This document shows, one piece after another, positions 38,187 to 43,202 of a DNA stretch of 64,000 bases. Below the pieces are notes generated by a model. The model saw only the letters and a list, made by a program, of their open reading frames with translations, was not told the DNA's origin and did not search any database. Within the stretch, counting starts at the first letter, position 1. Every line of letters begins with the position of its first letter. A program made the position numbers and the translations under genes. The stretch is from assembly GCA_903871935.1 (NCBI GenBank), contig CAIQIQ010000017.1, positions 62,001-126,000 of the forward strand. Direction: 5' to 3'. Source of the stretch: an uncultured Phycisphaerales bacterium. Its GTDB lineage: Bacteria > Planctomycetota > Phycisphaerae > Tepidisphaerales > Tepidisphaeraceae.

Positions 38187-40070
38187 TTATCGCCAATGCC
38201 GAGACGTCGGCAGAACTGCCGCCTTGGGCCACGCCGCGATCGCCTGCCTGATTCGCTCAACGGCCAACCCTTCAACCTGCATGGTACGCCGGACAATGTC
38301 GGTGTATTGCTGCAAACCTTCGCTGCGTCTCTCGGGACTTGTCCTGCCCCAGAACGGAGCACGGTCGCACTCATCCTTCGCCTGCTGGTACAGATCGGCC
38401 GCAGCATCGAGGTCATCCGCCACCGCGGGATGACCCACCGCCAGCTCGCGCAGGTATGCGATGGCGGCCGACTGGTTGTATCGGAGGTGGATCATCATGT
38501 TGTTATCCCATGAATCCCGTCCCAGCCCTACGCCATCTTTCTGCTCCTGCAACAGTTCCAGCCATGTGGCAAAAGCCTTGGAACCTGTGAGTATCTTCGA
38601 CGCATCCCAATCCTTCGCCGTCGTCGCCGCAGTCTCATCCCACAGCGCTACTGCCCACTTCAGGCTCTCCAGTTCTGCCTCATCCTGCGGCATCGCCTCC
38701 ACCAGCTTACCGGGCACAAAGACGCCCCATGGAATCCCATTATCCGATGGACCGAACGCCGGTTGTCCCGGCGACGGCCAGACCAGAATCGGCATCCGGG
38801 ATGCCGTGTCATAGCCGCTTACCAGCACCGCCGAGTCCTGCTGCCCAAGAACCGGCAGTCCCTGCTCAATTGCCGCAGTCACGGCCGATTCCAGGCTTGT
38901 CATGTACTTCTGACGGGCATCAGCGCCGGCCGCTGCGCCATCGCACGACACTCTTCTTAACTCCCGGCCAAACGCCCTGCCCACAAACTCAGCCCGCATC
39001 TTGAATACGTACGAGTCATTCGGCCACCACGCCACGTCATACTTCCCATCGCGAATCGGCCCGCTCAGATCCATCTGCAGCGCAAATGCCACGCCCGAAT
39101 AGCCCATGACCCGCGCATAGGTAGCATCCTGTCGGCCGATGCTCTGCAGCAAGATGGCCAGCCCCTGGCAATATGGGTTCGTATTGGGATCTCCTGGCGA
39201 AACGCCCTCAATCCAGACCTTGCCTCCCTGTCGTACGATACGTCCCGTCATCTGAGGTGCAGATTGTGTAGCCGCCATGCTTGCTGCTCCCGTGGCCGGA
39301 ACTGAAGTTGCTGATCCGCGCAGATGAATGGCCCAGTATCCCACGCCAGCTGCAACCGCCACGAGGACCAGACCCGCCCCAACGACCAGCAGCCCGCTGC
39401 CTGTCCTTGTGGCCGCAGCTCCCACTCCCGACAAACCGATCCTCGCAAGAGTCGGCGGCAAACTCGCCGGCATACTTTTATCCCGCCCGATCTCCTCCAG
39501 GCCCGCTGCCACCGATGCGGCCGGTACATCCACGCCGGCCTGACGCAGCAATTCCCTCAGTTGTTCGATGGCCTTCTCAACCCGCCGAGAAATCGTGCCC
39601 TGGGCAATGCCAAGTTCCTGTGCCAGTTCCTGCTGTGTGCGCCCCTGCAGGTAGGTACCGATCAGGCAGACTCTCAGATCATCCGGAAGCTTCTCGATCG
39701 CCTCATCCACGTGCCGGGAAAGCATCTCCCATTCATCCAGCGAAAGGATGCTGCTGTCCAGGCGAACCGCTCCCAGCTCATGTCGCTGACGCGCTCCTCG
39801 TCGGCGGATCAGGTCGATTGCTCGCGATCGTGCCAGCGTGTGCAGCCATGCCGGCAGTGGCTGGATAACCTGTGCAGCCTGTGCAGCAAGCTGCAGAAAA
39901 CATTCCTGGGCGATGTCCTGGGCATCTTCGCGATTGCGTGTAATGCGCAGGCCGATGCTGTAAACCAAGGCGGCATATCGCCGCACAAGTTCGGCAAATG
40001 CATCCGCACTTCGCCGCCGGGCGTACGCTTCCAGCAGATCAGAATCGGCAGTCATTTCTTGTGCGCTCAT
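38187..40070 (-). CDS. ECF sigma factor fused to a membrane helix and large outer domain
   Basis: 627 residues. The N-terminal ~185 form a sigma-70 of ECF type: region 2 (D-A-F-A-E-L-V-R-R-Y-A-A-L-V-Y-S, E-D-A-Q-D-I-A-Q-E-C-F) and region 4 (G-R-T-Q-Q-E-L-A-Q-E-L-G-I-A-Q-G-T-I-S-R-R). A membrane helix follows at about 225-247 (L-V-V-G-A-G-L-V-L-V-A-V-A-A-G), then ~375 residues outside the cell membrane with no recognised domain. The frame is continuous with no sign of a junction. Fused sigma factors of this kind are known in Planctomycetota. GGAGG six bases before 40070 fixes the start. No separate anti-sigma gene is adjacent. Confidence 0.88.
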   Translation of the reverse strand: MSAQEMTADSDLLEAYARRRSADAFAELVRRYAALVYSIGLRITRNREDAQDIAQECFLQLAAQAAQVIQPLPAWLHTLARSRAIDLIRRRGARQRHELGAVRLDSSILSLDEWEMLSRHVDEAIEKLPDDLRVCLIGTYLQGRTQQELAQELGIAQGTISRRVEKAIEQLRELLRQAGVDVPAASVAAGLEEIGRDKSMPASLPPTLARIGLSGVGAAATRTGSGLLVVGAGLVLVAVAAGVGYWAIHLRGSATSVPATGAASMAATQSAPQMTGRIVRQGGKVWIEGVSPGDPNTNPYCQGLAILLQSIGRQDATYARVMGYSGVAFALQMDLSGPIRDGKYDVAWWPNDSYVFKMRAEFVGRAFGRELRRVSCDGAAAGADARQKYMTSLESAVTAAIEQGLPVLGQQDSAVLVSGYDTASRMPILVWPSPGQPAFGPSDNGIPWGVFVPGKLVEAMPQDEAELESLKWAVALWDETAATTAKDWDASKILTGSKAFATWLELLQEQKDGVGLGRDSWDNNMMIHLRYNQSAAIAYLRELAVGHPAVADDLDAAADLYQQAKDECDRAPFWGRTSPERRSEGLQQYTDIVRRTMQVEGLAVERIRQAIAAWPKAAVLPTSRHWR

Positions 40071-40175
40071 GGGTGCCTCCACTTTTTTCTCGCACAAACC
40101 CTCTCTAATATGCGCGCAGCGATGCCAACGCCAAGTATCTCCCCTTTCCACGCCGCATACAATCATCAACTCACC

Positions 40176-40619: not shown

Positions 40620-40630
40620 AGCGGATTCCC

Positions 40631-40798
40631 GTGGAGCGCGGCCAGGCCAGTGGAGCGCGGCCACCGGCCCGCGACCGGATACGCCACAAGCCCCTGCCCA
40701 TCCCAGAACCGCCATCGCAGCCCATCGCGCGCCCTGAGTCTTCCGCTCAGCCCAACCTATCTCGCCCGCCCGGTCGCGGGCCGGTGGCCGCGCTCCAC
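40631..40798. repeat. Paired REP-like palindromic repeat (BIME) on the 3' side of the transposase
   Basis: The 27-nt unit GTGGAGCGCGGCCACCGGCC plus CGCGACC occurs at 40650-40676 and, as perfect reverse complement, at 40772-40798. A partial copy (GTGGAGCGCGGCCA) precedes it at 40631-40644. The pair encloses ~95 nt and the inverted copy reaches the stop codon of the transposase gene. The same pair with a similar interior is found at 41492-41640. Confidence 0.85.
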
Positions 40799-41436
40799 TA
40801 CTCGCCAAACAGCGACCCGCAGCTATACGTATACCACTCGCACGGCAATCTGGCCCCATTCTCTCGAATGTACCTGCGCACCCGCTGTAACTGCATCTCA
40901 TCACGAATCGCGTGATCAAACGGTTCCACCTGCCAGAGCGTACCTGATCGCCCCAGTAACCGGTTCACCTTGTGCGTACTGACGGATCGCCATTGCCCAA
41001 CCGTCCGCTTCGGCGACTCCTCTCCACCAAGCAGCAACAGCGCATGGAGATGATTCGGCATGATCACGAAGTCACCCAACCAGTACCCCTCACCATCCCC
41101 ATATCCTAGGCAGAACTCGACCTCAGCCCGGGTCGCACGATTCCTGAGCACACAGCACCCCTCTCCGCGATCCAGCCACCGCTCCCTCCGGCGATACCCC
41201 AACTCCGCATACTGCTCTCGTTGGGCCTCGGTATGCGGCGGCGGGTTAGCACGATCCCACGCCTCCAGTTCACGTGCCCACTGCCGCAGCATCGCCTGCG
41301 GGACCGAATCGGCAAGCCGCATCGTGATGTAGTAGATGACGCCTTGCTGAATCACATGCGGCAGGTTACGCCGAGACTCCATCCGAGCCCAACCCCAATC
41401 GAACTCGACATACTGTGGCGTCATGTGATCAGCCAT
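40798..41436 (-). CDS. REP-associated tyrosine transposase (RAYT)
   Basis: 212 residues of the IS200/IS605 Y1-like family. The metal-binding HUH motif is in F-V-I-M-P-N-H-L-H-A-L-L-L-L, and F-D-H-A-I-R-D-E then R-R-Y-I-R-E-N follow as in RAYTs. The N-terminus Y-I-T-M-R-L-A-D-S is typical as well. RAYTs cut and move single-stranded REP palindromes. Here identical palindromic pairs lie on both sides of the gene, as expected. The ATG at 41436 or the one at 41424 is the start; the longer open frame runs through the repeat and is not believed. Confidence 0.9.
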   Translation of the reverse strand: MADHMTPQYVEFDWGWARMESRRNLPHVIQQGVIYYITMRLADSVPQAMLRQWARELEAWDRANPPPHTEAQREQYAELGYRRRERWLDRGEGCCVLRNRATRAEVEFCLGYGDGEGYWLGDFVIMPNHLHALLLLGGEESPKRTVGQWRSVSTHKVNRLLGRSGTLWQVEPFDHAIRDEMQLQRVRRYIRENGARLPCEWYTYSCGSLFGE

Positions 41437-41491
41437 GCCAATCAGCCTAAGCCTCGCCGCCGACGCAAACAAGTGGAACCCGGCATCTCCC

Positions 41492-41640
41492 GTGGAGCGC
41501 GGCCACCGGCCCGCGACCAGATACGCCATATCGCTCTGTCCATCACACGGCTCTACTCGAAGCCCATCGCGCCCCATTGCGCCTTCTGGTCAGTGCGGCC
41601 CCTTCGCCCTACCGATCGCGGGCCGGTGGCCGCGCTCCAC
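41492..41640. repeat. Paired REP-like palindromic repeat (BIME) on the 5' side of the transposase
   Basis: A second copy of the pair at 40650-40798: direct unit at 41492-41518 and reverse complement at 41614-41640 (one base differs in the outer triplet). The interior is also related (both begin with a GATACGCCA motif and share AGCCCATCGCGC), so each pair is a ~150-bp element. The two elements bracket the transposase gene in the same orientation. Confidence 0.85.
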
Positions 41641-43018: not shown

Positions 43019-43039
43019 CCCCCTTCAACGCGCCACCGC

Positions 43040-43150
43040 CACGAACTTGCGCACCTTCTCCCCAATTCCACCGTAACCATCTGCGCAATCACCACTTGCG
43101 CTCCAGGTGGTACCCATCAGAGAACTTGCGCACCTGTCACTTATCCACAA
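43040..43150. repeat. Copies of the dispersed GCGCACCT repeat with a DnaA-box-like site
   Basis: AACTTGCGCACCT occurs at 43044-43056 and again at 43123-43135. The second is followed by GTCAC and TTATCCACA at 43141-43149, an exact consensus DnaA box. Read on the minus strand this is the same arrangement as at 4055-4081 and 4150-4180, where TGTGGATAA sits beside AGGTGCGCAGGTT. Thus the same composite repeat is present about 39 kb apart in opposite orientation. Confidence 0.6.
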
Positions 43151-43202
43151 TCACGCGTGGCTTCATCTCTGTGAGCTCCGTGAGCTCTGCGTGAGGTACT
43201 TC

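Follow-up and report, generated by a model that had tools for sequence, protein, structure and literature searches.

Among the described elements closest to the one studied here is the E. coli REPtron (tnpA_REP / yafM), which carries BIMEs on both sides of a gene for a RAYT, a REP-associated transposase (PMC2817692, PMC8266576). Enzymes of this kind from E. coli, Stenotrophomonas and Marinomonas recognise and cut REPs as single-stranded DNA (PMC8266576). GTAG and GTGG REPtrons are known from Proteobacteria and PVC bacteria (Nunvar 2010; Di Nocera 2013), for which one REP type per RAYT has been described, together with a TAG stop codon from or near a REP (PMC3733652, PMC2817692). REPINs, two inverted REPs plus an interior forming one hairpin, were described by Bertels and Rainey (2011). 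Here we analyse a RAYT locus of an uncultured Phycisphaerales bacterium within a 64,000-nt stretch of contig CAIQIQ010000017.1, hereafter the window. This locus shares flanking paired inverted REPs, an HUH/Y1 enzyme and a tag with a hairpin with the E. coli REPtron, unlike which it encodes a protein of 212 aa, uses a GTGG tag, has only 7 REP places in its genome and has a stop codon that overlaps the tag. With the GTAG/GTGG REPtrons it has in common the GT(A/G)G tag and one REP type per RAYT, and its REPINs are built like those of Bertels and Rainey but bracket the RAYT gene and are almost absent elsewhere in the genome.

Since cognate inverted REPs lie on both sides of the RAYT gene and each unit combines a GT(A/G)G tag, here GTGG, with a palindrome, the element is very probably a REPtron, that is, a RAYT gene with its own cognate REPs, in the order REPIN - RAYT - REPIN (Table 1). 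A sequence-only reading of the window had placed a RAYT between two elements of about 150 bp, each made of a unit, a related interior and the inverted unit, and this arrangement is borne out, as is the span given for it (40631-41640). The 27-nt palindromic unit that it proposed is present, but the palindrome is imperfect and stands on a GTGG foot. As also claimed, one unit runs into the transposase stop, the TAG sharing a single G (40798) with the GTGG tag.

Table 1. Features of the REPtron locus in the window (positions of the whole stretch).
Feature	Position	Strand	Remarks
RAYT / TnpA_REP gene, 212 aa	40798..41436	-	HUH motif H129/H131, catalytic Y189; stop TAG 40800-40798
Left (3′-side) REPIN, 149 nt	40650..40798	.	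REP, related interior, inverted REP; adjoins RAYT stop codon
Right (5′-side) REPIN, 149 nt	41492..41640	.	Direct repeat of left REPIN, spacing exactly 842 nt
REP unit	40650..40676	+	GTGG tag and imperfect palindrome; exact 25-nt core 40650-40674 (+)
REP unit	40772..40798	-	First G of GTGG tag common to RAYT TAG stop; exact 25-nt core 40774-40798 (-)
REP unit	41492..41518	+	Exact 25-nt core 41492-41516 (+)
REP unit	41616..41640	-	Exact 25-nt core 41616-41640 (-)
Partial REP unit, 15 nt, CGTGGAGCGCGGCCA	40630..40644	+	19 nt ahead of first full unit

The 25-nt core of the unit, GTGGAGCGCGGCCACCGGCCCGCGA, occurs at the locus in four exact copies, for which the chance expectation is 0.00 (100 shuffles). 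The arms of each REPIN are 100% complementary, over 30 nt in the left and 26 nt in the right element. Because both REPINs measure 149 nt, keep the 842-nt spacing at both ends and are 80-92% alike over aligned stretches (80% for their left 75-nt parts), we regard them as copies of each other. Each forms one long hairpin (z of about -7 against shuffles); it is only the whole REPINs that fold in this way, single REPs of the window doing no better than shuffles (z -0.3 to -0.9). An Rfam scan of the window gave no match. The partial third unit that the sequence-only reading had taken as a sign of repeated events is present, but repeated events are only one reading of it; a tandem duplication of 19 nt accounts for it equally well.

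The encoded protein is a divergent member of the RAYT family, as judged from its profile scores: it reaches 52.9 bits against the NCBIfam family REP_Tyr_transpos (NF047646), below the curated cut-off of 80, and 21.4 bits against Pfam Y1_Tnp (PF01797), slightly below the cut-off of 23, such cut-offs being a convenience of the models and not a biological definition. A PDB sequence search with the protein returned no match, and we therefore turned to fold comparison. The AlphaFold2 model, built from an alignment of 39 sequences (pLDDT 88), gave as its first Foldseek match 4ER8, a RAYT on a REP hairpin (E 6.7e-6, probability 1.00), with modest TM-scores of 0.44/0.56, followed by IS200/IS605 transposases. 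H129, H131 and Y189 are invariant across 35 embedded and 45 stand-alone relatives, and after the catalytic Tyr motif the protein has NG where NP is common among the relatives. By analogy with TnpA_REP, the protein would bind the GTGG-tagged hairpin as single-stranded DNA and would cut beside it by means of Tyr189 and the HUH metal site; such cutting could lead to copying or excision of REPs and REPINs, and possibly of the whole module.

In the genome (6.3 Mb in 172 contigs), REPs were counted by pattern searches allowing up to 3 mismatches. The genome-wide count of the unit that the sequence-only reading had proposed gave 7 places, 4 at the locus and 3 elsewhere. The outside copies, on contigs C3, C104 and C166, are single units and not REPINs; one of them has 3 mismatches in 27 nt, and the C3 copy also carries part of a REPIN interior. 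The REP family is thus very small, with no genome-wide population, yet not unique to the locus, and the proposed complete REP/BIME-RAYT set stands as a local set but not as a genome-wide family. Three further RAYTs, on contigs C11, C22 and C67, are 40-46% identical to that of the window, and each RAYT in the genome is single copy. Each of the three is bracketed by its own GTAG REP type, repeated on both sides at 756-835 nt, and these types occur in 40 (C22), 17 (C67) and 11 (C11) places, with reversed-pattern controls at 0. In C11 and C22 the RAYT ends at the TAG contained in the GTAG tag; the stop of the C67 RAYT is located deeper within the REP. With its three paralogs in one genome, the window element is a well-formed addition to the known REPtrons.

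In a set of 46 stand-alone RAYTs with long matches, that of the window included, matched REPs are found on both sides in 34 (5% in the mismatched-pair control), the four-unit layout of the window recurs in 15, and 31 end in TAG. The window REPtron is an ordinary, well-formed, stand-alone and stop-terminated form of a known kind. We considered whether a TAG stop within the REP was new and rejected this, since GTAG REPs often supply the stops of flanking ORFs according to Di Nocera 2013 (PMC3733652), and REPs that directly follow the RAYT stop codon or lie very near it are already described in PMC2817692.

A second form of the element was found among the relatives, in which the RAYT lies in frame inside a host gene. 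With the window's own genome left out, its class yields 46 matches at E values up to about 2e-19, of which 34 (counted by hand) are located in open frames 465 aa long or longer; for the rest of the phylum the hand count is about 17 of about 80. The 35 in-frame cases examined comprise ValS (12), DinG (6), Eco57I-type (5), PglX-like (3) and DUF1156 (2) hosts; CarB, PriA, ETF and CinA (at its end) occur once each, and three hosts have no clear name. 'PglX-like' is our own reading, Pfam giving Eco57I/MmeI methylase domains. Pfam profiles place host domains on both sides of Y1_Tnp in ValS, DinG, PriA, CarB and others, with only Y1_Tnp between them, and both His and the Tyr are kept in 35/35. Examples from other genomes of the class (L135-L166) are L138:3199-6954 (ValS), L140:3226-6030 (DinG) and L135:2887-7110 (Eco57I-type). 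An explanation of the long frames as a high-GC artefact was rejected, since recognised host domains stand on both sides in the same frame, and assembly artefacts are unlikely, as one case comes from G013, a genome of 7.2 Mb in one contig, and as many genera have the same loops filled. Individual in-frame RAYTs were also noted in PriA of a Methylacidimicrobium MAG (L059:1607-4852), in CarB of a Chthoniobacterales MAG (L058:740-4114), at the end of CinA in Verrucomicrobiaceae bacterium E54 (L073:1160-3118) and in a methylase gene of a Kuenenia MAG (L057:1649-5593).

Many embedded RAYTs have translated GTGG REPs on their flanks. Direct reading of the code shows that the peptides CGTGILPV and HGQDARAT are a GTGG REP and its reverse complement translated in frame, and TGVPPV, HGRDARAT and similar peptides that recur in these proteins would likewise be explained as translated REPs. 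The GTGG REP of the window is open in all six frames, whereas the GTAG REPs are not. Among RAYTs with matched REPs, the embedded ones have GTGG in 13 cases and GTAG in 3, the stand-alone ones GTGG in 8 and GTAG in 25 (Fisher p 2e-4, relatedness uncorrected). We infer that GTGG REPs permit reading through and that GTAG REPs tend to give a stop. Across the window module itself no frame is open from end to end, and because stops occur in every frame it could not enter a gene silently as it stands.

The host loops are found in both empty and filled states. In DinG, the genome of the window has a short loop (SATLCTGRADEGHDPFAYI) between TSATLCTG and the F-Y-R-L-G motif that follows, and in six genera from the family of this genome a RAYT fills the loop; it holds only REP-coded peptides in genomes G002 and G023, and in G004 (L186) a translated REP array (TGVPPV / HGRDARAT) and, as far as that locus was read, no RAYT. 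The ValS loop that precedes VTVATTRPETM, in the genes in which the motif search succeeded, has 17-51 aa in the empty state and 245-279 aa in the filled one; one genome retains a single REP remnant there. None of the genomes searched has more than one match for DinG or more than one for ValS, and the filled ValS of G026 and of G051 therefore appears to be the sole ValS. The window locus itself gave no match in the only other compared genome of the genus, and hence no empty site was seen for it.

Whether the module moves was approached by comparing divergence at shared sites. In an Eco57I-type pair (G073/G114) the RAYT dS is 0.15 and that of the host parts about 1.4; in a ValS pair (G129/G294) the values are 0.28 and about 2. 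Identity in both pairs is high over the RAYT and falls on either side. Other same-site pairs (DinG L145/L151, ValS L158/L159) showed no low RAYT dS. In the RAYT tree, in which many branches are weak, ValS, DinG, ETF and DUF1156 hosts interleave. For the low-dS pairs we favour recent transfer of the module into the same host-gene loop, a reading that rests on sequence divergence; gene conversion with short tracts may be the explanation instead. By the same measure some embedded modules appear to have arrived recently, and because relatives' modules stand in host-gene loops in this way, the window module is probably a mobile unit or was one in the past, although the module itself has one occurrence. 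For the family in general, we judge mobility of the RAYT modules as units to be an evenly balanced question. The same even balance holds for the fuller, homing-element-like reading. Here the conserved loops of single-copy genes, essential ones among them (valS, dinG, carB, priA and others), would take in REP-RAYT-REP modules that keep the frame by means of six-frame-open GTGG REPs and retain an active-looking HUH nuclease inside the protein of the host gene. These modules would pass from genus to genus into the same loop, and the REPtron of the window would be a stand-alone member.

The main competing account, to which we assign a probability a little under one half, is that of a stationary, domesticated RAYT that moves or maintains a small REP population in trans, the REPINs arising by local duplication and the module never moving. 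It agrees with the literature consensus (PMC3116915, PMC2817692) that RAYTs are single copy and mostly vertically inherited, with the single-copy state of each RAYT in this genome, and with the shared interiors and exact length of the two REPINs, as local duplication would leave them. Against this stand the two relatives whose RAYTs are much younger than the host gene at the same loop and the interleaving of hosts in the RAYT tree, which implies that modules change place in this family, and the presence of only three outside REP copies points to weak REP spread in trans here. These few outside copies, all single and one with mismatches, together with the NG in place of the common NP, could instead indicate a decaying REPtron whose enzyme is losing function while its REP family dies out. 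We consider such decay unlikely, as the gene and its catalytic residues are intact and the fold is confident, and identity of the four local REPs over 25 nt would be odd under it. An IS200/IS605 insertion sequence of unrelated origin, with palindromic ends due to chance, would account for the Y1 transposase domain, but is highly improbable given GT(A/G)G-tagged REPs with cognate specificity at four paralogous loci, the matched REPs around most stand-alone RAYTs and a fold search that ranked a RAYT first; neither IS-type ends nor near-identical whole-element copies were seen, the paralogs being no closer than stated above.

In-frame RAYT modules inside host genes were not found in the open literature searched, subscription papers lying outside this search. 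Insertion at conserved sites without loss of frame is familiar from inteins with homing endonucleases and from Rickettsia palindromic elements. The in-frame relatives resemble these in behaviour only, in that the frame is kept, the sites are conserved and, in two pairs, the insert is younger than the gene around it; Pfam shows no splicing domain in them, and their nuclease is an HUH transposase with REP ends. The accessible parts of Nunvar 2010 and Di Nocera 2013 describe REPs inside ORFs, not whole RAYTs in frame in host genes as among the relatives of the window element. In a 2018 survey (PMC6006769), a few proteins of unexpected length were put aside because they were taken for gene fusions or annotation errors, which may be the reason why in-frame RAYTs were missed. 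Recent movement of modules among the relatives, as favoured above, does not fit the view of REPtrons as not moving as units. RAYT self-movement, an open question in the literature, becomes testable by comparison alone, through fixed loops, empty sites and two younger inserts, and the in-frame modules would also reveal a transposase family that lives inside essential enzymes.

Two other features of the window were observed. Beside the REPtron, positions 38187-40169 (-) hold a long frame with an ECF sigma factor-like start and a long C-terminal region. Positions 43037-43152 are occupied by a dispersed repeat of about 115 bp, with more than 30 further copies in the genome at 74-81% identity. Each end of this repeat carries GAACTTGCGCACC, and a DnaA-box-like TTATCCACA lies close to one of the ends.
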